The translations under genes and the position numbers were made by a program. Source: an uncultured Lachnospiraceae bacterium (GTDB taxonomy: Bacteria > Bacillota > Clostridia > Lachnospirales > Lachnospiraceae). Taken from it: a DNA stretch of 64,000 nt. Where the stretch lies: the NCBI GenBank assembly GCA_947631505.1, contig CANRLR010000004.1, forward strand, positions 1-64,000. Reading direction: 5' to 3'. Under the pieces are notes generated by a model. The model was given only the letters and a program-made list of their open reading frames with translations. It was not told where the DNA came from and ran no database searches. Of the stretch, positions 28,563 through 44,700 are shown one piece after another. Within the stretch, counting starts at the first letter, position 1. Every line of letters starts with the position of its first letter.

Positions 28563-29517
28563 ATTACAGATTATATATGGTGACTGGTCTTTGGGAGTAA
28601 AAGGAGAGAATTTTCATTATATGTTCTCTTATACGACGGCAGGGCTGGATTCTCTCCGTGCATATGGCAAGGAGTGGCTGTATCGGACACCGAAACCGAC
28701 ATTTTGGCGTGCATTGACAGACAATGACCGGGGAAACCAGTTTCATCTTCGCTCGGGGATGTGGCTGTCGGCGGATGTTTTTATAAAGAATATGGGCTGT
28801 GTTGTTTCGGTAGAAGGAGAAGAAATTGCAGTAGCCGGTGCACCGGATAATAATACAAGGGGACAGGAAGAATATGCAGATACGGTTTCTGTCAAATATC
28901 ACTATGAAACGATTACCATACCAAGTACGGATGTTTATGTGACTTATACGGTGACAGCAGAAGGTAAAATTCTTGTAGACATGGAATATATAGGAAGAAA
29001 AGGATTACCGGAGCTGCCGGTCTTTGGTCTGCGGTTTGTCATGCCGACTAAGGCAAAGGGATACCGCTATGAAGGATTATCGGGAGAGACTTATCCTGAC
29101 CGCAGAGCGGGGGGAGTACCGGGCATTTATGAAGTAGAGGGACTGCCGGTGACACCATATATGCTGCCGCAGGAGTGTGGTATGCATATGGACACAAAAT
29201 GGCTGGAAATTGACCGTATCACAGAATTGGATAACCGGAACAAGAAGTGGAAGAAAACGACTCTTCGCATTGAGGCAGCAGGGGATACGGAAACAAATTT
29301 TGCATTTTCCTGTCTTCCGTATACAGCAGAAGAATTGGAGAATGCTACTCATCATGAGGAATTACCACCGGAACGGCGCACGGTGCTGTGTGTGTGCGGA
29401 GCAGTGCGGGGGGTAGGTGGAATTGACAGCTGGGGTGCAGATGTAGAGGAGGAGTACCGGATCAGCGGCGAGGAAAATATTCAGTTTTCCTTTCAGATAC
29501 TGCCCGTTGTTGGTTAA
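28543..29517 (+). CDS. lacM: beta-galactosidase small subunit (LacM type)
   Basis: This 324-residue protein equals the C-terminal beta-galactosidase small-chain domain (YTTAGLDSLRAYGKEWL; PTFWRALTDNDRGN; GLRFVMP; then a lectin-like C terminus). It completes the active site of LacL in LacLM enzymes. AGGAGGTGA at 28527-28535 lies ahead of ATG 28543, inside lacL, and the genes overlap by 20 bp, close to the known LacLM arrangement. The end is 37 bp before the response-regulator gene. Confidence 0.88.
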   Translation: MANTTSKLQIIYGDWSLGVKGENFHYMFSYTTAGLDSLRAYGKEWLYRTPKPTFWRALTDNDRGNQFHLRSGMWLSADVFIKNMGCVVSVEGEEIAVAGAPDNNTRGQEEYADTVSVKYHYETITIPSTDVYVTYTVTAEGKILVDMEYIGRKGLPELPVFGLRFVMPTKAKGYRYEGLSGETYPDRRAGGVPGIYEVEGLPVTPYMLPQECGMHMDTKWLEIDRITELDNRNKKWKKTTLRIEAAGDTETNFAFSCLPYTAEELENATHHEELPPERRTVLCVCGAVRGVGGIDSWGADVEEEYRISGEENIQFSFQILPVVG

Positions 29518-29554
29518 GCTTTTACCAGTATAACATACATTGGAGGAGAACCAT

Positions 29555-30304
29555 ATGGTGCGGATAGCAATTTGCGATGATGATGAAAATTATATTCAGG
29601 AACTGAAGCAGATAATGGGGGAATACAACAATGATCTGAGAAAGCTGGAAATTGATGAATTCTTATCAGGTGATGCTTTGCTGGCCAGCAGAGTGGATGA
29701 GCTGGATGCTATTTTTCTGGATATTCAAATGGAAAATATGGATGGAAACGAAATTGCTGTAAAATTGAAAAAACGAGGGTATCAGGGCTTATTGATTCAA
29801 TGTTCCGGCATATTTATGCCTACCCCCGAAACGATAAAAATCTCTCCTTACCGCTATTTTTTAAAACAGGATTCTCATGAGAAGACGGTAAGCGAATTGG
29901 AGGATGTTTTTGAAGAGCTGGACAGAAGGAAAAGCTGCTGTGAGATAGAGGCGTTCTATAAGAGGGAGAGAGTTTGTATCTGCATCGCAGATATTGTATA
30001 TATTTCCCATTATCGGAATGGACGGAGTATATTGCACTTAAATGATAAGAAGGCAGAACAATATATGGATGCAAAAATCATTGTACGTGCTAATTTTGAT
30101 GAACTGCTCCACCAGCTGGAGGGAGCAGATTTTGCTATTCCGCATAATAGTTATATGGTTAATTTAAGGTACATAACAAACTTTGATTACAAGGAAGATT
30201 ATATTGAAGTAAATGGCATGCCCGTTGCAGTATCAAGAGGGAAAAAAGATGAATTTTTTAGAAAATTTACAGAGTATTCAAGGAAGAAATATAGACATAA
30301 ATAG
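29555..30304 (+). CDS. LytTR-family response regulator
   Basis: This 249-residue regulator has an N-terminal receiver (acidic pocket ICDDDE, phosphorylation site D in AIFLDIQMENMDG) and a C-terminal LytTR DNA-binding domain (about 130-240; FYKRERVCICIADIVYI, IPHNSYMVNLRYI). LytTR proteins bind pairs of direct repeats about two helical turns apart, upstream of -35 boxes. The 44-bp boxes at 31694 and 38457 are candidate targets. ATG 29555 with GGAGGAG 6 bp upstream is used instead of the in-frame TTG 29540. The partner kinase gene follows after 36 bp. Confidence 0.88.
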   Translation: MVRIAICDDDENYIQELKQIMGEYNNDLRKLEIDEFLSGDALLASRVDELDAIFLDIQMENMDGNEIAVKLKKRGYQGLLIQCSGIFMPTPETIKISPYRYFLKQDSHEKTVSELEDVFEELDRRKSCCEIEAFYKRERVCICIADIVYISHYRNGRSILHLNDKKAEQYMDAKIIVRANFDELLHQLEGADFAIPHNSYMVNLRYITNFDYKEDYIEVNGMPVAVSRGKKDEFFRKFTEYSRKKYRHK

Positions 30305-30340
30305 AGTTACCTTTATCGATAATTAGGAATGGGGATTTGT

Positions 30341-31663
30341 ATGAAATATAATGGAATATTCAGTCTCTGTATGATTGTATCCACTGCAGTGGAAGTTTTT
30401 TTGGCGGCAGACTTTTATAAGGCCTTTTACCTAAAAAGGAAACAGTTTGCAGAAAGAAAAAAGGAATTAATTTTTGTCATAGGTGTGATTGCACTGAATT
30501 CTTTTGTTCATTTATTCAATCATCATTTACTGGACTTTGTGACTACCATTTTTCTTTACTTAATCATTGAAGTTGTTCTGGTGGAGGGAAACACATGGAG
30601 TAAATTGTTTCACTGGATTATATTGATTTTTGTTGTTTATAGTTCTAAATTGCTTTTTGCTTTTTTGTTCAAAATTTCTATAAACAATCCGATGAAAGAA
30701 CGATTTGAAAATGAGTTTGTTATGATCCATAGTATTATTGCCATTATTTTAATTGAGTTTCTTCTTCTTTCTATTATCAAACAGTTTTCAGAAATTCAGG
30801 TGAAAAAAATATCGGGAAAAATGTTTGGCTGTTTTTCTCTTGTTTCGGTGTCAGTGCTGGGGCTAATGGCAGCCATTTTATATTTTCGGGGGGACGGTAA
30901 AGAATTTTCTAAAGTAGATTTTATTGTCATCTTTTTTTATTTGCTGTTATTCTTTGGAATTCTTGCTTTGTTCTATACTTTCACAAAGTTTAGTCAGCTG
31001 CAGGAAGAACGAATGATGCTGGAAGTGAGTCAGACAAAATATGAAGAGCGGAGACAACGCCATAAAAGAGAGGGGGATCTGGAGCAGAAGTATAAGGAGC
31101 AGATACATGATATTAAATATTATCTGAAGCAGATTGGAATCTATATGAATGAAAAACGCTTTGATGAGATAAAGGATGTTCTAGATGAATTACAAATCGG
31201 AATTTATCAGGAGGAGAAAAATATTGTTTGCTCCAACCATTTTCTCAATGCACTTTTCGTTGATTTTAAAGGAGACGTTGGGAAAAAGGGTGTGGAGGCA
31301 GATATATTTGTAGAGGCGGGATTTAAGATTGAGTACATGAAAGAGATTGATATTACTGTAATAATGGGGAATTTGCTGGATAATGCTTTAGAAGCTGCCT
31401 CCAAATGCACGGCGGGGAAAATCTGGGTGAATCTCTATATGCAAAATCAAGGGAGTCTTGCTGTATTTTCTATTAAAAATACTTATACAGAAAAGATTGT
31501 GAAAAAGGGAAATATTTTTTTGACTACGAAAAAGGAAAAGTGGGGACATGGAATCGGACTGCAAAGTGTGGGCCGTCTGGTCGAGTCATATAATGGATAT
31601 ATGCAACAGGATTTTGATGAAAATACATATGAGGTAACTGTTATTATTCCGGTAAAAGAATGA
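30341..31663 (+). CDS. AgrC-like sensor histidine kinase
   Basis: This protein of 440 residues has about six transmembrane helices in residues 1-215, as in peptide-sensing AgrC/ComD kinases. A coiled linker follows with the phosphate-accepting His in EQIHDIKYYL, then a GHKL ATPase (NLLDNALEAA, GHGIGLQSVG). It probably senses an extracellular signal and phosphorylates the LytTR regulator. No agrB or agrD gene is seen nearby. ATG 30341 with GGGG 6 bp upstream is preferred; ATG 30329 is also in frame. Confidence 0.85.
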   Translation: MKYNGIFSLCMIVSTAVEVFLAADFYKAFYLKRKQFAERKKELIFVIGVIALNSFVHLFNHHLLDFVTTIFLYLIIEVVLVEGNTWSKLFHWIILIFVVYSSKLLFAFLFKISINNPMKERFENEFVMIHSIIAIILIEFLLLSIIKQFSEIQVKKISGKMFGCFSLVSVSVLGLMAAILYFRGDGKEFSKVDFIVIFFYLLLFFGILALFYTFTKFSQLQEERMMLEVSQTKYEERRQRHKREGDLEQKYKEQIHDIKYYLKQIGIYMNEKRFDEIKDVLDELQIGIYQEEKNIVCSNHFLNALFVDFKGDVGKKGVEADIFVEAGFKIEYMKEIDITVIMGNLLDNALEAASKCTAGKIWVNLYMQNQGSLAVFSIKNTYTEKIVKKGNIFLTTKKEKWGHGIGLQSVGRLVESYNGYMQQDFDENTYEVTVIIPVKE

Positions 31664-31693
31664 AAAAATAGTACGACAGAATGCGTGTATTAT

Positions 31694-31737
31694 TTGCAAA
31701 AAATGCACTTAAAATGCAAAGATTGCACCTTCGCTTG
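31694..31737 (+). repeat. 44-bp box, copy 1: tandem TGCAA/TGCAC repeats at promoter P1
   Basis: The 44 bp are identical to 38457-38500. Inside, TGCAA (31695, 31715) and TGCAC (31704, 31724) each recur at exactly 20 bp, so the box is two imperfect 20-bp tandem units. It abuts and includes the start of the -35 of P1. This is the expected form of a LytTR operator; being an attachment site of the neighbouring recombinase is the alternative. Confidence 0.85.
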
Positions 31738-31763
31738 CAATTGTTTTTTAAATGTGGTATATA
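31735..31763 (+). promoter_or_regulatory. promoter P1
   Basis: TTGCAA (31735-31740), 17 bp, TATATA (31758-31763) with TG at 31755-31756 (extended -10). It has the same layout as P2 at 38498, and similarity continues past the -10. In this orientation it reads a 9-codon frame, then the left inverted repeat, then antisense into the aminomutase gene. Confidence 0.7.
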
Positions 31764-31794
31764 TAGAAAACAAAGGTAAGTGGAGGTGTTTTTT

Positions 31795-31824
31795 ATGTGG
31801 GGATATGGAGATACGGGAACGTAG
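31795..31824 (+). CDS. 9-codon leader-like ORF
   Basis: ATG TGG then TAG encodes MWGYGDTGT. GGAGG at 31782-31786 sits 8 bp upstream, an ideal distance, and P1 lies just before. It may be a signal or leader peptide, a translated leader, or the stub of a gene cut off by rearrangement. A 4-codon frame (MKGG) follows directly. Coding is supported only by the ribosome site. Confidence 0.35.
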   Translation: MWGYGDTGT

Positions 31825-31837
31825 ATGAAGGGTGGAT

Positions 31838-31882
31838 GAAGAGAGGATAATAGGAGATTATCTACTGTTACAAACAGAAAAA
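31838..31882 (+). repeat. left inverted repeat of the putative invertible cassette
   Basis: The first 27 bp (31838-31864) recur exactly, in inverse orientation, at 37402-37428. A further 13 bp (31870-31882) match 37384-37396, giving about 41 of 45. The centre is GATAAT-AGGAG-ATTATC (31846-31862): two inverted arms around an asymmetric 5-bp spacer, the form of a tyrosine-recombinase crossover site. Confidence 0.85.
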
Positions 31883-31923
31883 AGATGATGGATAGTTACT
31901 ATTCAATTTAATTAAGCAGAAAA

Positions 31924-33159
31924 TCATAAAATTAATTTATCCGGAATGGAAATAGGGATACCTTCCCAAGTAGTTAAGTCAAAGATATCATTATGTTTCT
32001 TTAATATAGAATCCCGAGTGATTTCTATTTTACCCATTCCTTTTGGTGCACTAACAATATACCGCGGTATGGAAAGACCAGAAGTGTTTCCCCATAAATG
32101 CGTAAGAATATCTATTCCTTCCGTAATAGATGTTTGAAAATGCATAGTTCCACTTACATTTTTGGCATGAAACATATAATATGGTCTTACTCTCATACTA
32201 AGAAGTTGTTCATTGAGACACTGAACAATAAATTTATTATTATTGATTCCTTTTAACAGTACCATCTGATTTCCAAGGATTATTCCGTTGTCTGTTAATA
32301 ATTTGCAAGCATGAAAAGCTTCAGGCGTTATTTCTAATGGATGATTAAACTGTGTATTAATATATATAGGTGCATATTGTTTTAAAATATGTACAAGGGA
32401 CTTTGTAATCCTTTGTGGCATATTTACTAGAGTTCTACTTCCAATACGAATTATATATACATGACTGATTGATTTTAACTTCGAAAGTATTTGCTGTAAT
32501 TGTGAATCGGATAATGTTAATGCATCACCCCCAGTTATAAGGACATCGTGAATTTCAGAATGATTCTGTATATAGGTAATAGATTCATCCAATTCAATGG
32601 CCGAAATCATACAGTCATGTGTTCCAATAATTCGTTTACGTTGACAGTGTCTGCAAAAAGAAGCACAACAATTTGTAATGTTGATTATTGCACGGTTAGG
32701 ATAACGACGAACAACTTTTCCTGCTGGGTTAGTATGTTCTTCGGCAGATGGATCAGATTCACCTAATTCAATCAATTCTTTTACGCTTGGTAAAGACATT
32801 TTTCCAATGGGGTCATTGATAGGCGATTCATAATCTATTAATGAAAGATAGTATGGTGAAATTGAAAAGCGAAATTGTGCAGACACTCTTTGAATATCAC
32901 TTATTTGTGATGGTGTAAATTGCATCAAATCAGAAAGAGTTTCTAAAGTATGCACACGGTGGCTGATTTGCCATTTCCAATCATTCCAATTATCTTCGCT
33001 TGCGTTAAAATATGTTTTTAGAACATGTTTTCTCTGCTGTTGTTTTTGAATTTGTATTTTGCTTAAACCACAAGGAATTAATTTTATCTGTTGGTTTAAT
33101 GATTGTCCTATTTGATGCAATTGTTTAGAACGGGTAATAGATAATATATCATTTGTCAT
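31924..33159 (-). CDS. KamA-family radical SAM aminomutase, glutamate 2,3-aminomutase-like
   Basis: This 411-residue radical SAM/PLP enzyme has the cluster motif C165-x3-C169-x2-C172 and the PLP lysine K377 in PKGMGK. Lysine 2,3-aminomutase binds its substrate amine with two Asp (CDLS and VDAPGG); here those positions are K333 (HAKNVSG) and S370 (VSAPKG). As remembered, glutamate 2,3-aminomutase has Lys and Asn there, so glutamate to beta-glutamate is the favoured reaction. GGAGG lies 7 bp before ATG 33159. It diverges from the TIR gene, is AT-rich, and lies inside the inverted repeats. Another beta-amino acid is possible. Confidence 0.82.
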   Translation of the reverse strand: MTNDILSITRSKQLHQIGQSLNQQIKLIPCGLSKIQIQKQQQRKHVLKTYFNASEDNWNDWKWQISHRVHTLETLSDLMQFTPSQISDIQRVSAQFRFSISPYYLSLIDYESPINDPIGKMSLPSVKELIELGESDPSAEEHTNPAGKVVRRYPNRAIINITNCCASFCRHCQRKRIIGTHDCMISAIELDESITYIQNHSEIHDVLITGGDALTLSDSQLQQILSKLKSISHVYIIRIGSRTLVNMPQRITKSLVHILKQYAPIYINTQFNHPLEITPEAFHACKLLTDNGIILGNQMVLLKGINNNKFIVQCLNEQLLSMRVRPYYMFHAKNVSGTMHFQTSITEGIDILTHLWGNTSGLSIPRYIVSAPKGMGKIEITRDSILKKHNDIFDLTTWEGIPISIPDKLIL

Positions 33160-33181
33160 TTTAATACCTCCAAAATATAAT
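33153..33181 (+). promoter_or_regulatory. promoter of the TIR-STAND pair
   Basis: TTGTCA (33153-33158), 17 bp, TATAAT (33176-33181). The -35 overlaps the start codon of the divergent aminomutase gene, so the two directions may compete. Confidence 0.65.
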
Positions 33182-33203
33182 ATAGTGAAAGGAAAATTAA
33201 TTT

Positions 33204-34049
33204 ATGTCTAGTTCAAAATCTTATGATATCGGAATATCCTACGCATACGAAGATGCGGATATTGTAAAAAAAATTGTAGATGCATTGGAAAAAGCAGGCT
33301 TAAAAGTTTTTTTTGATCAAAATGAAGCTGCTAAGCTCATAGGTAAAAACCTGACCTATACATTACCTGAAATTTATTCTAAGCAATGTGCTTATTGCCT
33401 TATGTTTGTTTCACACTTTTATGCAGAAAAAAGGTGGACAAATTATGAACGTGACTGGCTATTTCAAAAAAGAATTGATAGCCAGAAAGACAACGTGTAT
33501 ACAGACTGTATTATTCCTGTATTTATTGAGCATACAGAGATGCCAGGACTAAATGCTGGAATCGTTGGTTTCGATGTTCACAAACAATCGCCAGACGAAA
33601 TCGCATCTATAATGTATGAGAAAATTAAGGGGAAAAAACTTATTTCTCCTCAAAATAATTTTGTAATGTCTGATGTATTCCAAAATATTTATACAAAGAT
33701 AAATTCTTTTTTAGAAAATCAATCAGATTGCACTTATAAAATAGAGAAATACTCCGAATATGATGTAACTATTAATCTGCATTTAAACTGCCATAATTTT
33801 TTTATGCATCTTGTATTGACGGAACCATCAAAAAATCTTTTAAAAATTTCTCAAGGAGAAACATTTTCACGACAAGCAAAAGAAATTTGGGATGCCGAGG
33901 CTTATTTAAAAGATGGACAGCTATATTTTATTAACTATAATTTTTCATTAGAACTTCCAGGAACTTTGCACACATATACCGTTGATGAATTGTCAAATTT
34001 AATTGTTGAAAGGCTATTCAATTATATAAAGGAGTATTCTTATGTATAA
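33204..34049 (+). CDS. TIR-domain protein
   Basis: This 281-residue protein has an N-terminal TIR domain (about 5-145): YDIGISYAYEDADIVKKIVDAL, GLKVFFDQN, CLMFVSHFYAEKRWTNYERDW with the candidate NAD-cleaving Glu at residue 82, and VFIEHTEMPGL. The C-terminal 130 residues are not recognised. Prokaryotic TIR proteins often act in antiphage defence by consuming NAD or making a nucleotide signal. It overlaps the STAND ATPase gene by 8 bp, so the two are likely partners. GAAAGGAAAA is the ribosome site. Confidence 0.82.
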   Translation: MSSSKSYDIGISYAYEDADIVKKIVDALEKAGLKVFFDQNEAAKLIGKNLTYTLPEIYSKQCAYCLMFVSHFYAEKRWTNYERDWLFQKRIDSQKDNVYTDCIIPVFIEHTEMPGLNAGIVGFDVHKQSPDEIASIMYEKIKGKKLISPQNNFVMSDVFQNIYTKINSFLENQSDCTYKIEKYSEYDVTINLHLNCHNFFMHLVLTEPSKNLLKISQGETFSRQAKEIWDAEAYLKDGQLYFINYNFSLELPGTLHTYTVDELSNLIVERLFNYIKEYSYV

Positions 34050-36387
34050 ATGTATGATAAATAATCTCCAGACTATTGAAAAACTTTATACAATTTCTGG
34101 AAACCATCTTGTTTGTTTAGAAGGCAAAAAGGGGACTGGAAAAACCACAGTATTACAAGAGTTTGCGCATAAACATAAACATATAATACAAATCGAGTCT
34201 TTTACCAGTTGTGATAATTATTTATCGCCGATAATCAATGCTCTGTATCAATACTACAATATTTACAAAGACGAATTCGGAGAGATGTCTTTTCGTTCTG
34301 AATTTACATACGAGGAATTATTGTTACAAAAACTTTTAAATATATGTACCACCTCCAAATGTGCAATTCTTTTATATGGTTTTGCTAACTATTCAAAAGA
34401 GTTTATTAAATTTATTCAAAAATCTATTTCTGCAATTTTACGGAATGGAAAAAACTGTTCCATTTTTATTGAAATAGATTCCGACGATTCTTTGCTCTCT
34501 TCTAAAGTACAGGCGATTTATTCTTTTCCGCATCAAGAACATATATTTTTCTCTGAAGTAGAATCCCAAGAGTTAAAAAAAGTCTTTTTAGATGAGCATC
34601 CTAATATCGAGATAAAAAAAAATGACCTTGACTATATTGTTAGTTCTGCAAATAAAAATCCTGCAATAATGAATATTATCGTTAATTATTTAAAATCAAA
34701 AAAATATATTGCTTTTTATGAAACAAAATATTATTGTAAGCCTTTGCAAATAGGCATACTATCTGATATTTTGAAAGATGATTTTTTTTCACGATTTAAT
34801 CGTTTGGATGAACTTATGAAAGCTACCTTTTTGAAATCAAGTATGTTTGGAATGGAATTTTATGCTTCACATTTGGAAAACTCATTTCAAATTATTTCAG
34901 CAAGTGAAACTCTTAACAAAATAGAAAAATATACAAACTTATTATTTCAAAAAGATATGAGTCCTCAATTGTATTCTTTTTCCAACAGTGAGACGTTATA
35001 TTTTGCTAAATCTATTATTTCTGATGAACAAAAAAAGAAGTGGGGAGCAATCCTATGCGATTATTATCGGAAACTTTGGGAGCAATCAATTATGAATGTC
35101 AATCATTCATCTGTAAATTTTGCAATACGAGCAGCTTTTTATGCGGTAACAGCTTGTAAATATAATGAGGCAGTATCATTTTATATTTCAGCAATATTTA
35201 TGTGTATGAAAGAGAACAATTTTCAGCAGGTACTAATCATGTTAAAGGAAATTGAAAAATTACTTATTTACCAAGAATTACCTGAAATTATAAAAATGCA
35301 TCTGGGGGAATTTCGTGCAAATTGTTTTGAAAATCTTGGACAATACCAAAAAGCATGTCAATCATATCAAGATGCCATTCGTAAATTTAAGGATTTTGAG
35401 TATTTTGACATCATGAAAATTCAATATCATTTAGCATACTGTACTTATTATACAAGCAGAGTAGATTTAGCCTTACATTTAGCAGAATCCCTAAAAAAGA
35501 TAATTACACCTGATTCACGGAAAGATCCATTATATTATAATGTTATATCTTTACTTGCTACAATTTATCGTGAAAAAGCCAACCCTAAATTTATTGAAAT
35601 GTACCTTATTGCGATAAAGGAATGTAAAGAACATGGTTTTGAACATGAATACTATGTTCAATTAAGGAAAGCTGATCTTTGTTATGATGTTACATTATCT
35701 ATTCCTATGCTCCAACAAGCTGTTACTTATTTTAAAGACAATCATTGTCAGAAAGAATATGGCAAAGCAATACATAATCTTGGTACTGATTTCTTATATT
35801 CCGGTAACCCAAGGAATGCATTAGAATATCTGATGGAATCCAAAAATGTTTTTGCAAAGTTCGGTAGCGTGGATGAGGTGTATGCTATCAATTGCATCGG
35901 GGTATGGTATGCCATCATAGAGAATAACTATCAACATGCTTTACAGTTTTTTCATCAGGCAGAACACATGCAAATTAACGATTTTAAAAAAATGACAGTT
36001 TATGCCAATATTGCAAGTTGTTATCAAAAACTAGAATTGTATGAAAAATGTCAAGAATATATTCATAAATGTGAACTCCTTCCTGCAAGGCAACAAAACA
36101 AAGATGTTGGATTTTATCAACGTACGGTTTTGTTTACATGGGCTTTTTTCTATATGGAACAGAAAAAATATTCTGAAAGTCTAAAAATGTTCCGCTCGTG
36201 CTGGGATATAGCACTAAAAAATGATCAATCATATCTTGTTGCAAACTGCATATTAAATTTGTGTAAGCATTTAAATATTAAACCAACAAAAATGGAATTA
36301 AAATTCTGCAGTATTTCTCATAGCAAATTATATGAGAAATATTACAAAAACAAGAGTTTGTTTCATACTCTTCGATTTATTGAATGA
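34042..36387 (+). CDS. STAND-like P-loop ATPase with C-terminal TPR repeats
   Basis: This 781-residue protein has Walker A GKKGTGKT at residues 28-35, an AAA/STAND NTPase core (about 1-290) and a long helical array with TPR-like pairs (about 360-750, e.g. ENLGQYQKACQSYQDAIRKF, GNPRNALEYLMESKNVFAKFG). STAND proteins oligomerise when their repeats sense a trigger and then switch on a partner effector. Here the partner would be the overlapping TIR gene. AAGGAG lies 7 bp before ATG 34042. The gene ends 1 bp from the convergent ATP-grasp gene. The base composition is AT-rich like the whole island. Confidence 0.78.
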   Translation: MYKCMINNLQTIEKLYTISGNHLVCLEGKKGTGKTTVLQEFAHKHKHIIQIESFTSCDNYLSPIINALYQYYNIYKDEFGEMSFRSEFTYEELLLQKLLNICTTSKCAILLYGFANYSKEFIKFIQKSISAILRNGKNCSIFIEIDSDDSLLSSKVQAIYSFPHQEHIFFSEVESQELKKVFLDEHPNIEIKKNDLDYIVSSANKNPAIMNIIVNYLKSKKYIAFYETKYYCKPLQIGILSDILKDDFFSRFNRLDELMKATFLKSSMFGMEFYASHLENSFQIISASETLNKIEKYTNLLFQKDMSPQLYSFSNSETLYFAKSIISDEQKKKWGAILCDYYRKLWEQSIMNVNHSSVNFAIRAAFYAVTACKYNEAVSFYISAIFMCMKENNFQQVLIMLKEIEKLLIYQELPEIIKMHLGEFRANCFENLGQYQKACQSYQDAIRKFKDFEYFDIMKIQYHLAYCTYYTSRVDLALHLAESLKKIITPDSRKDPLYYNVISLLATIYREKANPKFIEMYLIAIKECKEHGFEHEYYVQLRKADLCYDVTLSIPMLQQAVTYFKDNHCQKEYGKAIHNLGTDFLYSGNPRNALEYLMESKNVFAKFGSVDEVYAINCIGVWYAIIENNYQHALQFFHQAEHMQINDFKKMTVYANIASCYQKLELYEKCQEYIHKCELLPARQQNKDVGFYQRTVLFTWAFFYMEQKKYSESLKMFRSCWDIALKNDQSYLVANCILNLCKHLNIKPTKMELKFCSISHSKLYEKYYKNKSLFHTLRFIE

Positions 36388-36388
36388 C

Positions 36389-37372
36389 CTAATATTTTCT
36401 AATTCTGTATTTACGGCATGCATTCTGAACAATCTGCTGAAGAACATCTTCATTTGAAATATTTTTTAAAGATGTGCATAAATTAAACGAACTATATGGG
36501 GCTAAAAGTGGAAGAGGTGCTATTTCCAAAAAATATGGGGTACCATCACTAGCTATTCGAAAATCAGCTCTTCCATAACCTTGCCCCTGTAAAAAAGAAT
36601 ATATTTTGCAACTATACTCTTCTACTTTTCTATTTATCTCATCAGATAAAGTAGAAAGTTGTTTTTGATAAGTATGTGATGTTTTAATGTTTGCATCATA
36701 CAATTTAATTTGTTGTCCTTGTGAATCAAGAATTGATAAAACTCCTACCGCATATAGTCCATGTTCATTCTCGAGGATTGGAACAGTCACTTCATCTCCT
36801 TTAATATATTTTTCACACAGAATTGGTTCATCAGGGTACAATTTACGCAAATTATTTAAAGTATCTATATATTCCATATGATTTGAAACCAGTTTAACTC
36901 CCATCCCGGTTCCTTCACAACTTGGTTTAAGAACTAAAGGGAAAGGTATTGGAGAAAAATCTTTATATTGATTGAATGTGTCTTCAGTTATGCAAAAAAA
37001 ATCTGGTGTCGGGATTTTTAAATAAGTAGCTATTAATTTTGCCTGTATTTTATCAAGGCAAAGTGAACAACCGAAAGAATCCGTGCCAGTATGGGGGATT
37101 CCATAGCCCTCCAAAATTGCTGGAATAAGTCCTTCCCTATTTCGTCCACGATATCCCCATGCTAAATTAAATACCAAATCCACATATATATTGTTATTCA
37201 AATTCTGGATTAATTGTGTTGCGTTACCCAACAAAACTACTTCATAACCGCATTTTTCAAGAGTATCTTTAACAAAAGTAACATCCGCAGCATTTAGGAA
37301 GTCAGTATAATTTAAATCTAAGGATTCAAACCCATATTGTTCTTTAATATCATATGTAATTCCAATTTTCAT
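36389..37372 (-). CDS. D-Ala-D-Ala-ligase-like ATP-grasp enzyme
   Basis: This 327-residue ATP-grasp protein follows the Ddl plan: FNLAWGYRGRNREGLIPAILEGYGIPHTGTD, FPLVLKPSCEGTGMGV, CEKYIKGDEVTVPIL, YGRADFRI, and YFLEIAPLP. In Ddl the last block reads LEIN; here Asn is replaced by Ala, so a metal ligand is changed. It may link amino acids or a beta-amino acid such as that made by the neighbouring aminomutase. ATG 37372 with GGAGGC upstream is chosen; a longer frame reaches 37438 through the inverted repeat. A terminator at 37437 isolates it from the recombinase gene, so it may be silent in this orientation. Confidence 0.82.
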   Translation of the reverse strand: MKIGITYDIKEQYGFESLDLNYTDFLNAADVTFVKDTLEKCGYEVVLLGNATQLIQNLNNNIYVDLVFNLAWGYRGRNREGLIPAILEGYGIPHTGTDSFGCSLCLDKIQAKLIATYLKIPTPDFFCITEDTFNQYKDFSPIPFPLVLKPSCEGTGMGVKLVSNHMEYIDTLNNLRKLYPDEPILCEKYIKGDEVTVPILENEHGLYAVGVLSILDSQGQQIKLYDANIKTSHTYQKQLSTLSDEINRKVEEYSCKIYSFLQGQGYGRADFRIASDGTPYFLEIAPLPLLAPYSSFNLCTSLKNISNEDVLQQIVQNACRKYRIRKY

Positions 37373-37383
37373 AAAAGCCTCCG

Positions 37384-37428
37384 TTTTTCTGTTTGTGCCG
37401 ATAGATAATCTCCTATTATCCTCTCTTC
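37384..37428 (-). repeat. right inverted repeat of the putative invertible cassette
   Basis: Inverse copy of 31838-31882; exact over 27 bp (37402-37428) and over 13 bp (37384-37396). The crossover-like core lies at 37404-37420. It is placed in the 5' leader of the ATP-grasp gene, so inversion would put that gene about 140 bp downstream of P1 in sense orientation. Confidence 0.85.
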
Positions 37429-37436
37429 CACCACTC

Positions 37437-37475
37437 AAAAAGCCTGCACCTAACTCATAATGTCAGATGCAGGCT
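37437..37475 (-). terminator. terminator of the recombinase gene
   Basis: AAAGCCTGCA and TGCAGGCTTT form a 10 bp stem. The T-run is on the minus strand (GCAGGCTTTTTG), so it stops RNA coming from the recombinase gene before the ATP-grasp gene. Confidence 0.8.
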
Positions 37476-37483
37476 TTCCGATT

Positions 37484-38404
37484 TTAAAGAGAAAAATTTT
37501 TCCTAGGATGTTTCGTTGTCAATATATCTTTTTGTTTTGACATTGCCACATGCGTATATATTTCTGTTATATTAATTGAACTATGACCAAGCATTTCCTG
37601 AATATACCGGATATCGACATCGGCCTCCAAAAGGTATGTGGCAAAGGAGTGGCGGAACATATGAGGTGTAATATGCTGTTCAATGGCAGATAGAGAAGTA
37701 TATTTGTTAATCATATCCCGGACAGATTGTTCCGATAATCGTTTTTTTAAACGGTTCACAAAAAAGTAACCGCATTCCTTGATATCGGAAAAATATTCCT
37801 GCTGATATTCGCGAAGAATTGCAATGACATCCTCATTTCCGATTTGGATTTTTCGTTCCTTTGCTCCCTTTCCATAAATCAGAATATCCCGTTCCAATAA
37901 ATCAATATCCGTTGGCTTTAAAGAACATAATTCCGATATTCTCATTCCCGTAGAAAAAAGAAGTTCTATGACAGCAATATCACGGATAATACATCTCTTT
38001 TGATATGGACTTTCAGCAAGCTTTTTTTGCATATACATAGTGGACAAAAATGTTTCAATTGTATGGAGAGGAATTATTTTCGGCAATGTGATCGGCTCGC
38101 GAAATTTGGTCTGAATTTTATTCATTGGATTGATACCAATGAGGTCTTTATATTCAAGATAATGAAAAAAAGCTTTTAGTGTGGCTATTTTCCGTTTGGA
38201 AGTTTTCGGCTTATAGGATTGATGAAGCATAGAAATGTAAGATTCCAAAATCGGTGTGTCTATCTGGGATAATAAATCGACAGAAATATATTCTCTAAAT
38301 TGCTTCAAGTCAATACGATAGGCTTTTAAAGTTTTCATATCAAGTCGTTTTTGAAATTGGCAAAAATCAATATAATTTTTAGTTATTTTTTCTAATTTTT
38401 CCAT
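37484..38404 (-). CDS. tyrosine recombinase (XerC/D-like integrase)
   Basis: This 306-residue recombinase has a SAM-like core-binding domain (about 1-100) and a catalytic domain with R in GMRISELCSL, H-x2-R in HMFRHSFA, H in MLGHSS and the nucleophile Y in TEIYTHVAM. All catalytic residues are present. ATG 38404 with AAGGAG upstream is used; the frame extends to 38491 without a better site. It lies just outside the right inverted repeat and next to the second 44-bp box, so it may invert the cassette, or excise the island, or both. It is not presumed to be the dif-acting Xer. Confidence 0.88.
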   Translation of the reverse strand: MEKLEKITKNYIDFCQFQKRLDMKTLKAYRIDLKQFREYISVDLLSQIDTPILESYISMLHQSYKPKTSKRKIATLKAFFHYLEYKDLIGINPMNKIQTKFREPITLPKIIPLHTIETFLSTMYMQKKLAESPYQKRCIIRDIAVIELLFSTGMRISELCSLKPTDIDLLERDILIYGKGAKERKIQIGNEDVIAILREYQQEYFSDIKECGYFFVNRLKKRLSEQSVRDMINKYTSLSAIEQHITPHMFRHSFATYLLEADVDIRYIQEMLGHSSINITEIYTHVAMSKQKDILTTKHPRKNFSL

Positions 38405-38456
38405 AATAAAAATCTCCTTTGTTTTTTTCTTCATTTTACCAGAATCACAAAAAAAA

Positions 38457-38500
38457 TTGCAAAAAATGCACTTAAAATGCAAAGATTGCACCTTCGCTTG
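38457..38500 (+). repeat. 44-bp box, copy 2: tandem TGCAA/TGCAC repeats at promoter P2
   Basis: It is identical over 44 bp to 31694-31737 in the same orientation. The two copies bracket the island (aminomutase, TIR, STAND, ATP-grasp, recombinase) as direct repeats 6.76 kb apart. It is likely a LytTR operator for P2. Confidence 0.85.
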
Positions 38501-38526
38501 ACATCGGTTTTAAGATGTGATATGAC
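38498..38526 (+). promoter_or_regulatory. promoter P2
   Basis: TTGACA (38498-38503), 17 bp, TATGAC (38521-38526) with TG at 38518-38519. It begins inside the 44-bp box and drives the DNRLRE/Kelch-Rhs operon. Confidence 0.75.
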
Positions 38527-38581
38527 ATAGAAAAAACTTGTTTTTGAATGAAAGCAAATAGCTTTGATATGGGAGGTATTT

Positions 38582-41500
38582 ATGAGAAACAAAAGAAAAC
38601 GAAGTAAGAAAATATTCTGCACAATATTTGTGGGGGTATTGTTGATAGCAGGATTTGCCGTTGTAAATGAGAGGACAGAACAGGAAACCAGAGTTGATGC
38701 TGCGATGGCAAATGCTACAATTACCGGGGAAATCCCAGAAAAGAGAACCAAGTTTGTCAAACAGTTCTCTATGTCTGACGGCAGTTTTACAGCGGCCACT
38801 TATTCCATGCCGGTTCATTATAAAAAAGGCGGCAAGTGGCAGGAAATAAATACGACGTTAAAGAAATCAGGAAAGAATACATATCAGACCAAGTCGACCG
38901 ATTTGAAGATCAAAGTATCAAAGAAAGCAAACCAGAAGTCTGTTATTTCCTTAAAGCGGGACAAGATGGGGTTATCTGTTGCTTTGAAAGGGAAGAAGTT
39001 GAAAAAGGCGAAAGTGAAAATCAGCAATCCCAAAAAGAAAACGAAAACAGATGTTCTCAATCAGAATCAGGTCATCTATAAAAAGGTGCTGAAAAACACC
39101 GATGTTTCTTATGATATTTTTCCAGAGAAAATTCAGGAAATAATATCAGTGAAGAAAAAGAGAAAAAATAAATCTCTATCCTTTCAGATCGGGACAAACA
39201 AATTGAAGGTAAAGGTAAAGGGGAAGAAAGTTTACTTCAAGACGAAAAAAGGAAAGACCAGATATACCCGTCTGACAACCCAGTTCACAGATGCCAATGG
39301 AGTTTCTACCTCCAAAGGGAAAGTTTCTTACAACAAAAAGAAAGGAATTCTGAAAGTAACACCGAATAAAAAGTGGTGGAACAGCAAAAAAAGAAAATTC
39401 CCGGTAGAAATACGTACTACATATATTACGGATGAGCATGAACGGGATGTGAAAGTGGGGGCAGCGTATGCGGGGGCACCAAACAGTAATTTCAGTTATG
39501 ACAAATCTCTTCTTTTACAGGCAAATAAGTGTGTAGCATTTACCAAGATGACCAGTCTGGCAGAATTAAAACAGCCGAATGTCCAGATTCTAAATGCTGC
39601 CCTTCACATCAAAAACGAGAAGACATTAAAACTGGGAGCAGGGAAGCTCTTCGACATTGGCGTGCACAAGGTAAAGCAGAATTGGAGTGTCAAGAAATTA
39701 ACCTATAACAACCGTCCGGCATATGACTCCATGGCATCGGCTACAATGGGAATCCAAAAGGCAGGCAGTTATCAGTGTGATATAACTGAGATTGTCAAGT
39801 CATGGTATAGTGGTGAGGCAAATTACGGAGTAGCACTGGCAGCAGATAATTCCAACCGTTCTTATCAGGCGAAACTGGACCGGAATCCATATTTCACTGT
39901 CCATTATGAAATTGTCGGCTTTGACGGTGCGGTAGAACTAAAAGAAGATCAACCAATAACAAGAGAGGTTCTCAAAGCGGGACAGGAGAACTATTTCTAC
40001 TTTGATGCGGAACCGGGCATTGCCTATGAACTGTATACATCATCCGATCTTGATACACAGGGTATCCTTTATGACACCAAGAAAGAACGTTCCGATTATG
40101 ATGATAACAGTGGGACGGATGAAAACTTTATGTTCGTAAAGAGTTATGACGGCAGGAGATACTTGAAAGTAACGACCAAGGGCAGCAGTGCAACCGGGAA
40201 ATATACACTGATGCTGAAAAAACGGTTTGCCAGACCGGAACCGGTAGGAAAAGAGGGCCAGGACAGCTACATCATCCAATGGGATGCCGTGGAAAAGGCA
40301 AAGGAATATCTGGTAACCGTTTATGATGAAAAAGGGAAAATTCACGAGGTAGTAGTAAAGGATACTTCCTACGAGTATAGTTATACGAATGAAACGGCAG
40401 GAAAGACTTTGGCATTTACCGTAACACCGCAGGAAAATAAGGAGCTGAAGGGTGAGAGTTCCAGAAAGATTTATAATAGAAATATGGGTTCTAAATGGAG
40501 TTATGATACACCGATGAATCAGACAAGAACAATGTTTGGCAGTACCGTCTGTAATGGAAAAATCTATGTACTGGGTGGCATGACAGAGGAAAAGAAGGCA
40601 GGTAAATCAATGGAAGTGTTCGACGTTGAGAAAAGGGCATGGACAACCCTTTCCAATTATCCGGGAGATGTCGATGGCCTATGTAACATGGCACTTGTTA
40701 CGATAGGAGATGATATTTATGTACTGGGCGGACAGAGTGATGATACTGCTGCTGCAAAGCTTTTATCGGATGTGTACTGTTATCACACAGAAAGCGGTAA
40801 GTGGGAGAAGAAAGCAGACATGCCACAGAAACGCACAGGTATGGTAACGACCGTATGCGATGGGAAAATATATGTTTTTGCCCGTATTGGAACAACAGAG
40901 CGGGTAGATGTATATGACGTGGCTGAAGATAAATGGACAAGTACGGTGAAAGCAGATACCAGTATCAACATTCAGGCACAGACTATTGACGGACATATTT
41001 ATGTTCTTCGGGAAAAAGAGGAAAAGGGTGCGGTAAAAGCAGAGATGTACTGGGAAGAGTATCTGCCGGAAGAAGACGAATATGATAATGCCGGTACGGC
41101 CTGCCCGATAGAGAAAGCAGACCGCTATCGTTATGGAACGGTAGTGGAGGGAAAAATTTATATGGTCAAGGAAAAGGAAACGAAAGAACCGGTCTGCTAT
41201 GATTTATATCTTGACAAATGGAGCAGTCTTCCTGATATGAACCTGAGGAAAGAGAAGTCGGAGCTTCTGTCCGTGGGAGCAGCTCTTTATAGTGTTGGCG
41301 GAATGACAAAAGGTTTTGGACTACTGGATGTGGTAGAAAAATACGAACCCGGAGAGGGACAGATTGAAAAGCAGATAGATGTGTCCAAAGGGGAGATATA
41401 TGAATTACAGGTAGAAGCAGGGCATTGTAAGGAAAATACGGACTATCTGGTAACGGTCCGTATTAATCCCAAGGAACTTGCATTTGAAAAGACTTCATCC

Positions 41501-41695
41501 TTTATGAGCGAAAAAGAGTATACCAAGGGAACAAATGGTGTTCAGTTGGTCAAATATTCTAAAAAGGACGGGGTTATGATTCTGAAGTTAAATGGAAAGA
41601 TGGAATCCGAAGAGACAATGGAAGCCTATCAGTCCATTCCGGTCAGGGGATTGAAAGAGGGAAAGACAACGGTAAAAATGCAAATTGCGTATTAG
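38582..41695 (+). CDS. DNRLRE/Kelch surface protein
   Basis: This 1037-residue exported protein has a signal or anchor helix near residues 10-30, a Lys-rich segment (about 90-290), a DNRLRE-like adhesive domain (about 296-446; SWYSGEANYGVAL is typical), a Fn3-like part (about 550-630) and Kelch repeats (about 640-800; GKIYVLGG, DDIYVLGG, GKIYVFAR). DNRLRE proteins often accompany Rhs/wall-associated proteins, as here. ATG 38582 with GGGAGG 5 bp upstream is used. It is the first gene after P2. No enzymatic role is seen; binding or anchoring of the Rhs protein is inference. Confidence 0.8.
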   Translation: MRNKRKRSKKIFCTIFVGVLLIAGFAVVNERTEQETRVDAAMANATITGEIPEKRTKFVKQFSMSDGSFTAATYSMPVHYKKGGKWQEINTTLKKSGKNTYQTKSTDLKIKVSKKANQKSVISLKRDKMGLSVALKGKKLKKAKVKISNPKKKTKTDVLNQNQVIYKKVLKNTDVSYDIFPEKIQEIISVKKKRKNKSLSFQIGTNKLKVKVKGKKVYFKTKKGKTRYTRLTTQFTDANGVSTSKGKVSYNKKKGILKVTPNKKWWNSKKRKFPVEIRTTYITDEHERDVKVGAAYAGAPNSNFSYDKSLLLQANKCVAFTKMTSLAELKQPNVQILNAALHIKNEKTLKLGAGKLFDIGVHKVKQNWSVKKLTYNNRPAYDSMASATMGIQKAGSYQCDITEIVKSWYSGEANYGVALAADNSNRSYQAKLDRNPYFTVHYEIVGFDGAVELKEDQPITREVLKAGQENYFYFDAEPGIAYELYTSSDLDTQGILYDTKKERSDYDDNSGTDENFMFVKSYDGRRYLKVTTKGSSATGKYTLMLKKRFARPEPVGKEGQDSYIIQWDAVEKAKEYLVTVYDEKGKIHEVVVKDTSYEYSYTNETAGKTLAFTVTPQENKELKGESSRKIYNRNMGSKWSYDTPMNQTRTMFGSTVCNGKIYVLGGMTEEKKAGKSMEVFDVEKRAWTTLSNYPGDVDGLCNMALVTIGDDIYVLGGQSDDTAAAKLLSDVYCYHTESGKWEKKADMPQKRTGMVTTVCDGKIYVFARIGTTERVDVYDVAEDKWTSTVKADTSINIQAQTIDGHIYVLREKEEKGAVKAEMYWEEYLPEEDEYDNAGTACPIEKADRYRYGTVVEGKIYMVKEKETKEPVCYDLYLDKWSSLPDMNLRKEKSELLSVGAALYSVGGMTKGFGLLDVVEKYEPGEGQIEKQIDVSKGEIYELQVEAGHCKENTDYLVTVRINPKELAFEKTSSFMSEKEYTKGTNGVQLVKYSKKDGVMILKLNGKMESEETMEAYQSIPVRGLKEGKTTVKMQIAY

Positions 41696-41747
41696 TTTGA
41701 GCGAATATACGGAATGGAACAGTATAGAGAGTTGGAGGAGCTGGAAC

Positions 41748-44700
41748 ATGGGAAAAGGCGGAAGAAAAAGTTTACAAATAAAAAATATCGTATGGGGGAC
41801 TGCCCTTTTGGCCGGTATCACAGCCGGATTTTATATTGGCAGTACAACCAGTCATGCAATTAATGTGAATTATGATTCTGCGGAAGCCGCTTATTATACC
41901 CAGAGCTATAATCAAGTGGCAGAAGATACGGCAGCAGGTTCTCCTTTGGAAGACTCCTCTGTGGATGGTGTCGATACATCTACCGGTAAACTCGTACTAT
42001 CCCGCACGGATCTATCTCTTGAGGGAATGGCTGGAATGGATCTGGAATTAACCCGTTCTTATAATAGCAGGAAAGCAAACATAGGAAAAGCGATATCCGA
42101 AACCACTGTGGAATTGGAGAGAGATACGGTAAAGATTACCTATACGAACAGTGCAGGAAATAAGCACACGGTCGTTGTGCTAAAAGAAATCTATGAAAAA
42201 CACAAGGATGCACTGAAAGATATGTTTGTGGAATATGACTTTAAAGAAACATGGAAAGACAGTGTTGTCCGAAATACCCATCAAACGAAAGTCGTGCCGG
42301 GCAGTGACTATAACGTATACGGAATCGCCACCGGCTGGTCTTTCGATTTTCCGTGGATTGAAACGATGTCGATTGAGGGGAATAGTTATGCTCAAAAGCC
42401 AATGTACCTTCATTTCGGAAATGAAACCGTAATGAAAATTGCCAGTCAGGAAGACAGTGTGAACAGATCCTACACCATTACAGGGTTTGAAAACTATGAT
42501 TATCAGGATATCAGACTGGAGGATTTTAATAAAACAGTGGATGGTGTGCCGTGCCGATACCTTCTACGGGACAAAAACGGACTCCGTACTTACTTTAACA
42601 GTGACGGAGTAATTGTGCTGCAAAAAGATAATCACAATAATACCATCCGTTTCACTTATAAAGATAAAATTTATTTTAATACGATTACAGACTCCGTCGG
42701 CCGTGCCGTAAAGTTTCAGTACAAGGAATCCGCCCATGGCCTGCCGTTACTGAGCAAAGTGACAGTAGAAGGAAAAAAAGTAAGTGGCGGTGTATCGAAG
42801 GAAACGGTCACTTATAACAGCAGCGAAACTTCTTACCAGCCAATTCGTGGCAGCAAATTATATGGGGCAAAATTAAATGATGTGACGGCAGATGGCAGCA
42901 AAGAATCCTACCGTTATAAAACAGTAGAAAGTCTTGTCAATACGTCAGGGGCAGGTGTCGCTTCCCAGCGTGCCCTGACCAATCAGACCTATCTTATACA
43001 GGGAGTGGAAGAAGATGGCTGTATCAGCAGGTACGAGTACCGGGCAGGGGCAGTCCGTGCCAAAGCGGTAGATGCCAGCCAGTCCCGTGAGGTGGTAACA
43101 CAGCATTATTATGTGACCAGAGAATATGAGCAGGACAGTAAAAATGAAAAGAAAAAAGCAAATGGCAGAAAATATGATTATTTTCAAAAGCAGTTTAATG
43201 AGGAGAAACAGGCATATGAACTGGTATCTTATGATGACCTGACCGGAGAAGCACATGAAATGGCTGCGTATGGAACGGAGAAAATACAGCCGGTTACTTT
43301 GGTCAGTTCCTACAATCCGAAAAAGAAGTCCAAAAAGAAGAAAGTAACGGATTATGTTTATAAAAAAAGTGATTTGAATTCCGGTTCGTTACAGTTAAAA
43401 AAGAAACCAAAGAAGAGTACAGCCGTATATATTTATAATCGTAACCGACTTTTGACCAGTCAGATAGAGGAAAGGAAAATAAAAACCGAAATTCAGTACA
43501 CATATGACAAAAGTGGACAGGGCTCTCTGGCAGTTTTGGAAACAGAACGAAATTATGGGACAAAACGAACAGGGAAAGCGGCTGTTTCCATACAGGGCTA
43601 TACGTATGATTCCTATCGGAATGTATTAAAAAGTCAGGCACCAAAGGCATATCGGTCAAAGTATAAGGGAAAAGAAGCACTTTTTACCACTACCTATACT
43701 TACCATGGCAGCGGTTATCCGAGCAGCGATATTGCATACACTCTTTCGGAAGTAAAAACAATCGAGAATTATGTAGATGATACAACAAAGAGTAAGACAG
43801 AAACATTTCTGGGGGCAAACAAAGTAGATGTAGTGAAAAATTGTACTTACGTCAGTGAGAAGGGCAATGCCTATCGTTTGATATCCCAGTCCGAGAGCAC
43901 TTATGACACGGCAGGGAATGAAACGGTATGTAAATATTACCCAAGCTGCAGCAGCGGAGAACTGGGTGATGTCATACAGTATACAACTACTTACAATGGC
44001 CTTGGACAGGAGACAAAAGAGGCGGTTAAAAACATTTCTGCCAGACATCCGGAGCAAAATATCTCTTACGTTGCAGAGGAAACGACCTATGATGATTTTG
44101 GAAATGTGCTGAGCAGTAAGGATCGAAAGGGACTATTATCTACCAGTATATATGATGAAAACACCGGAGAGGAAATTGCGTCAACAGAAGCAAAGGGAAC
44201 TGTTTACGAGACATCCGATAACACTTATCACACGGAAGATAACCTGAAAACGATGAGCTTAGACTATTATAATCGTTGTACCGTCAGCCAAATGGATACA
44301 TTTTCAAACCTAATCATCGAAAAAGATGAAAAAGCCGGGACATGGACGGAATACGAATATGATTACGGAGAAGACAGTGAGGATGAAGAGGAAGACGAAG
44401 AGGAGGCAGTAGTAGAAAGCCGATTAGTAGAGGAGCGGACTTATTCCTTCCAGCCAACAGAAGATAAAGTGCTCACAAAAGCCGATGGGACGACAGAATA
44501 CAACTATGATATTCCGGGAAGAGGAGATAAAATTTTATCGGCAGCACGGCACGTTTATAATGATGAGAATGAGGAAATCGTAACAGCAGAATTTTCCGGT
44601 GGGGCAATAGATGCGTCCCATTGCAGCAGCTGGCAGCTGGTAAAAAAAGAGATTGATACGGAAGAAGACAGTACGATAACGATATCTTACACAAAAGAAT

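Follow-up and report, generated by a model that had tools for sequence, protein, structure and literature searches.

The window analysed here, the first 64,000 nucleotides of contig CANRLR010000004.1 (positions 1 to 64,000 of the forward strand; assembly GCA_947631505.1, an uncultured Lachnospiraceae bacterium), carries four genes between two inverted repeats, with the gene of a tyrosine recombinase just beyond the right repeat. With a probability of roughly three in four, this arrangement is a site-specific invertible cassette, in which a recombinase switch alternates two opposed gene sets and which is also subject to cassette exchange. The window cassette belongs to a family of recombinase-linked two-site cassettes, and the assemblies of relatives present signs of mixed orientation. 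By extension, the window copy would itself invert, and inversion would be expected to change gene expression.

The left repeat, at the site far from the recombinase, occupies 31832-31882 on the plus strand and the right repeat, at the near site, 37384-37434 on the minus strand. They are inverted, 88% complementary over 51 nt, and share an exact core of 27 nt (31838-31864 and 37402-37428). In a scan of the window for exact repeats with arms more than 100 bp apart and a seed of 16, this core was the longest exact inverted repeat, the two next reaching 16 nt; sequences simulated from 31501-37700 with a first-order Markov model (200 runs) had a longest exact inverted repeat of 13.2 nt on average and 17 at most, against the 27 of the real sequence. 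Both arms contain GATAAT-AGGAG-ATTATC (GATAATAGGAGATTATC; 31846-31862 on the plus strand, 37404-37420 on the minus strand), thus presenting the inverted repeats with an identical crossover centre that characterise site-specific invertible DNA elements. In the 2.74-Mb genome the exact 17-mer is found in these two arms only, with one further place carrying two mismatches. The four open reading frames (ORFs) in between encode a radical SAM enzyme (rSAM, minus strand), a TIR protein (plus), a STAND-like protein with TPR repeats (plus) and an ATP-grasp ligase (minus), and the stretch has a G+C content of 30.7%, compared with 42.4% and 38.5% in the 20-kb flanks. An earlier note on this DNA, which had described inverted repeats around four AT-rich genes, is thus confirmed on this point. 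No RNA element reached the Rfam gathering thresholds within 29500-39500.

The recombinase gene (37484-38404, minus strand) lies some 60 bp beyond the right site and is full length, with a match to Pfam Phage_integrase at 1e-42, in agreement with the complete tyrosine recombinase noted there before. It is Xer-like, its best NCBIfam models being XerD (234.5 bits) and XerC (233.4 bits); both scores are below the respective cut-offs of 329.6 and 335.15 bits, and a housekeeping XerC or XerD was rejected on this basis. An integron was rejected as well, as the integron-integrase model gave 106 bits against a cut-off of 265, attC arrays not having been searched for. In an alignment of 15 recombinases the columns R155, K179, H248, R251, H274 and Y283 are invariant, and we take these to be the catalytic residues. 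Judging by sequence, the protein is the putative invertase that would catalyse inversion at the two sites.

Recombinases of this family (E<=1e-50) are present in 14 of 39 genomes of the genus, that of the window included, and four of the others (G036, G005, G006 and G004) have an inverted site pair beside the gene. A scan of named genomes with the alignment of 15 recombinases provided a wider set of 80 loci, the best among at least 560 confirmed ones; 50 of the record titles say Lachnospiraceae, the others Roseburia, Acetatifactor, Eubacterium, Clostridium and more. In 40 of these 80 loci the motif GATAA-N7-TTATC follows the recombinase at a distance of at most 300 bp, and in 2 it precedes it. 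Elsewhere in the loci it occurs 37 times in 992,667 bases, so that about one locus with a site after the recombinase would be expected by chance. A partner of the same sequence lies 2-6 kb away in 14 loci, with 15 inverted matches and no direct one, and excision between direct repeats was accordingly set aside. One further locus (L117) has a variant site within a 62-nt exact inverted repeat.

Together, the window, the four genus loci, the 14 partnered loci, L117, L306, L229 and the cassette contigs L221 and L224 make up 24 two-site cassettes. All have inverted sites with constant arms, and among them there are 19 different centres and no perfect palindrome; constant arms around varied, non-palindromic centres fit tyrosine-recombinase crossovers with polarity. 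Free repeat searches yielded the window, L044, L077, L049 and L117, while the other cassettes were chosen by the motif, so that identical centres within those pairs are a selection criterion. The locus L267 was excluded from the count because one of its two inverted sites is crossed by an ORF. It is also the only one of 38 loci with a close recombinase in IMG/VR (61% identity, the rest at most 35%), and a phage origin was rejected. In L161 each arm of a long inverted repeat (6404-6466 and 10162-10224) holds two sites whose centres differ.

The assemblies of relatives frequently end at the site. In 25 of the 80 loci the contig stops less than 200 bp beyond the recombinase, 22 of them with a site before the end, whereas a stop before the recombinase start occurs in 2. 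The genomes of 21 of these broken loci and of three unbroken ones were searched for a second contig, and 14 of the 24 have one that stops no more than 125 bp from the identical 17-mer or, in a single case, shows a gap right after it. In Clostridium sp. HBUAS56010 three contigs stop at an 18-bp repeat, namely the one with the recombinase, one of 3,077 bp that holds only the cassette, and the one with the other flank. In Lacrimispora amygdalina src4 two contig ends fall exactly at the limits of a 24-bp repeat, which we read as forks, and Roseburia hominis An869 breaks at the site too, within a repeat of at least 38 nt whose full length is not measurable. In the goat-derived metagenome-assembled genomes (MAGs) G212 and G228 both flanks enter the same 124 bp of cassette, which include a gene start, with an overlap of 141 bp each, presumably the assembler word length; this is read as both orientations in one sample, with a long repeat as the other possibility. 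A contig with the G212 cassette was looked for and was absent from the contigs available.

Contig ends of this kind could instead come from mixed strains that carry different cassettes, or from the length of the repeats. The broken assemblies are mostly MAGs, and in most of the broken genomes the contigs end inside a shared stretch in which repeat length cannot be measured; a repeat of 134 nt exists in G234, and long repeats could also underlie the two 141-bp overlaps. However, the records of HBUAS56010, src4 and An869 carry no MAG label, and the repeats measured in the first two, at 18 and 24 nt, should not by themselves break an assembly, whereas cassettes with exact repeats of at least 77 nt were assembled through (L139, L164, L174 and L074). 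Mixture or repeat length in place of inversion is therefore rather improbable. The earlier suggestion that the arms are recombinase crossover sites is thus strengthened from two sides, by assemblies that end at the site and by relatives that share the recombinase family and the arms while centres vary, partners are inverted and cargo differs.

Within the window cassette, the minus-strand KamA-family rSAM gene (31924-33159) has glutamate 2,3-aminomutase as its best model, at 525.6 bits and without reaching the cut-off of 650. On the plus strand follow the TIR gene (33204-34049; TIR_2, 2.6e-15), for which the PADLOC models rank PDC-S66 first and ThsB second, and the gene of the STAND-like P-loop ATPase (34042-36387; nSTAND3 at 9e-4, below cut-off, and TPR_12 at 3e-9). 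The minus-strand ATP-grasp gene (36389-37372) resembles D-Ala-D-Ala ligases (Dala_Dala_lig_C, 1.1e-27). From these domain assignments, the cassette may have an immune role. Thoeris (ThsA and ThsB) was rejected for this cargo, since a TIR protein is present without a ThsA match and its best model is PDC-S66.

In the mechanism proposed, the Xer-like recombinase would recognise the GATAAT/ATTATC arms, exchange strands in the matched centre AGGAG and thereby invert the intervening 5.56 kb. P1, a promoter beyond the far site, would read inward, and a terminator would shield the recombinase side. In the sequenced orientation P1 would point toward the TIR and STAND-TPR genes in sense, with the rSAM and ATP-grasp genes antisense; after inversion it would read the ATP-grasp gene and then, through the antisense STAND and TIR genes, the rSAM gene. 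The flip would thus favour either the immune-type set (TIR and STAND) or the enzyme set (ATP-grasp and rSAM).

The flanks of the window cassette are compatible with this scheme. P1 (31694-31763, plus strand, directed into the cassette) includes an upstream box, TGCACTTAAAATGCAAAGATTGCA (31704-31727), and, as read by eye, the hexamers TTGCAA (31735-31740) and TATATA (31758-31763) with a 17-nt spacer; it is a weak match, absent from the list of the consensus promoter scan. Between the recombinase and the right repeat lies a terminator-like hairpin with a T-run (37437-37477, minus strand, -21.6 kcal/mol, tail TTTTTGAG), which would halt leftward transcripts ahead of the right site and which was found by a custom terminator scan and is not in the consensus scan list. 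An outside P1, a terminator on the recombinase side and an ATP-grasp gene brought into sense by inversion, all proposed before, fit what was found, P1 being read by eye and the hairpin coming from one scan. With opposed sets inside and P1 outside one end, the locus has the layout of alternate-expression switches of the Mu G or UU172 type.

A clear asymmetry of terminators is seen across the cassettes. Inward terminators are present in 17 of 47 near flanks and 1 of 36 far flanks (p 0.0003; shuffles 4 and 4). The asymmetry of promoters outside the far site is moderate, with inward promoter scores above 5 in 19 of 36 far flanks and 8 of 47 near flanks (p 0.0008). All 24 cassettes have genes on both strands, and 22 are strictly convergent; of 174 comparable segments taken upstream of the recombinase in 31 loci, only 28 are. 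The earlier proposal of phase variation of a whole cassette is supported by these data, but the layout looks more like alternation between two sets than on/off switching of one cassette.

Mostly on one strand, TIR, SIR2/STALD or AAA/STAND-type domains were found in 16 of the 24 cassettes at E<=1e-3, several of the ATPase matches lying under the curated cut-off and L158 and the TIR protein of L145 being assigned by PADLOC. Four cassettes had TPR matches only (L049, L074, L224 and L229), and four gave no immune-type match (L119, L164, L171 and L221). The opposite strand encodes mostly enzymes, namely ATP-grasp proteins, serine hydroxymethyltransferase (SHMT), GT2, rSAM, class-III aminotransferase, carbamoyltransferase and GHMP kinase; glycosyltransferases in L044 and L171 and an acetyltransferase in L181 were assigned by eye. 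The nearest homologue of the window cassette, L306 in genome G366, opposes a TIR-TPR fusion to ATP-grasp and KamA-like rSAM genes on the other strand, so that the gene order is changed and the strand partition kept. The middle and end of the fusion resemble the window STAND protein, which is 27% identical to its later part over 733 aa. In L174, TIR and STAND genes are likewise opposed to an ATP-grasp gene. Two cassettes encode ThsA-like SIR2-STALD proteins convergent with a TIR protein (L118, 10992-13356, 1e-59; L145, 7179-9334, 1e-100), and the L145 TIR protein matches ThsB at 0.0085 only. Separately, L119 (11022-13704) and L171 (6945-9690) share a similar convergent pair of 335/343-aa and 562/575-aa proteins; the three members scanned with Pfam (both of L119 and the 343-aa protein of L171) gave no match, and the pair is a candidate new system. 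Transposase-like genes, recognised by eye, lie inside L077 (6650-7890), L074 (4489-5871) and L139 (13070-13675).

A number of observations weigh against a strictly alternating switch. The chief one is a promoter-like sequence, TTGTCA-17-TATAAT (33153-33181, plus strand, 11/12), right before the TIR gene and overlapping the rSAM start, which speaks against sole dependence on P1 and suggests that TIR-STAND expression may be partly independent of it. The cassette could thus invert while TIR and STAND are expressed constitutively from their own promoter, P1 switching only the ATP-grasp and rSAM genes on and off, a version that the hairpin now beside the near site would also suit. On the other hand, the region as a whole has 37 promoter-like sites against 41.2 in shuffles, so that this one may be due to chance; L145 leaves just 20 bp between site and TIR start, and the inner sides of 20 cassettes give shuffle-like promoter scores. 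Constitutive TIR-STAND expression is consequently a possibility to be kept in mind, and the smaller one. The flank data themselves are mixed: outward terminators occur in 8 of 47 near flanks (4 in shuffles) and no far flank of 36, promoter scores above 5 are also found outward in 11 of 36 far flanks, and a plain -10 test gave 19 of 36 far flanks (shuffles 14.4) and 15 of 47 near flanks (shuffles 12.1). The scan of far flanks missed the window, as P1 lies just over 100 bp away, and L077, L049 and L074 scored below 5. The window is moreover one of the two cassettes that are not strictly convergent, its rSAM gene pointing at the left site; in the other, L049, a second ATP-grasp gene points at the near site, and in both the exceptional gene shares its strand with the other enzyme. 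In L118 and L145, ThsA-like and TIR proteins on opposite strands sit uneasily with strict alternation if the two belong to a single system.

As to the sites and their orientation, the window contig crosses both sites in one orientation only, and the overlaps of flank, cassette and flank in src4 spell a single orientation. The three homologous cassettes with TIR/STAND and ATP-grasp genes (window, L306 and L174) all have the same orientation. In 397 genomes drawn from the family, the STAND protein of the window has two matches besides itself at E<=1e-20, both with the same strand facing the far side. Among cassettes with an ATP-grasp gene, the strand facing the far side is the immune one in four (window, L174, L306 and L181) and the enzyme one in three (L117, L152 and L049), these being different cassettes; the comparison of related genomes, which the earlier note had put forward as a check, found no cassette that has one orientation in one genome and the opposite orientation in another. 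The strict motif is missing within 300 bp of the recombinase in 38 of the 80 loci, nine near sites have no partner at up to two mismatches in the DNA searched (L186 and L190 with 10 kb beyond), and G013 carries two sites with different centres. The single orientation of the window and the loci devoid of a strict site would also be expected if the repeats were relics of mobile elements or duplicated leaders at which recombination no longer occurs. This is very improbable in view of the full-length recombinase, the 27-nt exact repeat, the constant arms around 19 different centres, and relatives whose contigs end at the site, one of them with a separate cassette contig. Duplicated leader sequence was rejected as the origin of the repeats because it fails to account for 24 such pairs with differing cargo.

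Cassette replacement is seen in one genome pair. G005 and G006 have the same locus, next to a gene that by eye is CdaA-like. Their blastn alignment runs at 76% through the near site and resumes 33 bp beyond the far site at 80%, with no match in between. The cassette of one opposes a TPR/AAA protein to SHMT and that of the other a TPR protein to two ATP-grasp proteins, and the site centres differ; aligned flanks around an unrelated interior indicate that the cassette was replaced between the sites. The sites might then serve mainly for exchange, inversion being a by-product without a regulatory role, as the low G+C content of the window cassette and the varied cargo of the family would also allow. 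Such a purpose is unlikely to be the whole of it, given that 22 of 24 cassettes are strictly convergent and their terminators mostly one-sided, an order that matters if orientation matters.

It is tempting, as a long shot, to see in these loci an immune platform of Lachnospiraceae and their kin, in which a resident recombinase and two inverted landing sites would flip and exchange paired opposed programs, allowing populations to hedge and to trade cassettes. With similar reserve, the opposed programs might be a TIR/SIR2/STAND-type effector on one side and a small-molecule enzyme on the other. In split cassettes such as those with ThsA-like and TIR genes, inversion could arm the system, because both proteins would coexist only briefly after a flip. 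It seems that, under one gut-bacterial recombinase family, entire opposed gene sets that include immune-type proteins are switched and swapped. If this is so, it would account for heterogeneity of defence within one culture, provide a sequence signature by which new immune/enzyme pairs could be found (recombinase, GATAA-N7-TTATC and convergent cargo), and allow the coupling of a STAND-type protein to a metabolic enzyme to be tested in strains locked in one orientation.

Upstream of the cassette lie the genes of a LytTR response regulator (29540-30304, plus strand), a candidate regulator of P1, and of a GHKL-type histidine kinase (30329-31663, plus strand), and P1 may for this reason be signal-regulated. 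The P1 region is repeated directly, over 67 nt at 90%, at 38457-38523. The 24-bp box TGCACTTAAAATGCAAAGATTGCA has three exact copies in the genome (31704-31727 and 38467-38490 in the window, and G000:C6:106535-106558), each preceding a similar promoter; the two other boxes precede a secreted Kelch protein (38582) and a paralogue 48% identical to it. The genes with this box could form a small regulon, perhaps under the LytTR system (29540-31663). Between P1 and the left repeat, a nine-codon ORF, MWGYGDTGT (31795-31824), follows a GGAGGTG motif and might be a leader peptide or the stub of a gene formerly behind P1. After the Kelch protein, 41685-47873 encodes a protein of 2062 aa, RHS/YD-repeat-like by eye, perhaps an exported polymorphic toxin or a wall protein.

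To our knowledge, the inversions described so far act for the most part on promoters, on surface proteins or on restriction specificity. In the G segment of phage Mu and the C segment of phage P1, an outside promoter serves opposed alternative gene sets in an invertible segment, as proposed here, but these systems use serine invertases and carry tail-fibre genes. RecV of Clostridioides difficile inverts short regulatory segments, not gene cassettes. The RecV switches are nonetheless instances of inversion by a tyrosine recombinase in a member of the Clostridia (PMC5386303, PMC2784873). In the gut, inverton group 139 comprises 33 invertons, 32 of them from Clostridia, is tied to a nearby tyrosine recombinase group, 35, and shifts orientation in culture; two examples measure about 0.25 kb, against 5.6 kb for the window cassette, and identity of the sites is unchecked, as the main text does not give the motif (PMC11892184, a study of 2025). 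Inversion has been linked to phage inhibition in the P segment of e14, where PinQ differs in being a serine recombinase and inversion forms a chimeric adsorption blocker (PMC12529663).

Operon-sized convergent immune/enzyme cassettes were not found described in the papers that the literature searches listed, in several cases a part of the matches, as judged from titles and the starts of abstracts, overlap with Milman et al. 2023 being unchecked. With regard to Thoeris, L118 and L145 share ThsA-like and TIR proteins with it, but as convergent genes within an invertible cassette, whereas the window has TIR and STAND and no SIR2. In Ureaplasma, the abstract and outline of the study describe neither operon-sized immune/enzyme cargo nor cassette exchange, the cargo being membrane antigens, yet inversion at short inverted repeats alternates two neighbouring genes in UU172/UU171 and in mba/UU376 (PMC3047005). 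The tyrosine recombinases RipX, XerC and CodV have been named as candidates there (PMC3599477). It is with such alternating switches that the scheme proposed for the window compares in its manner of working.

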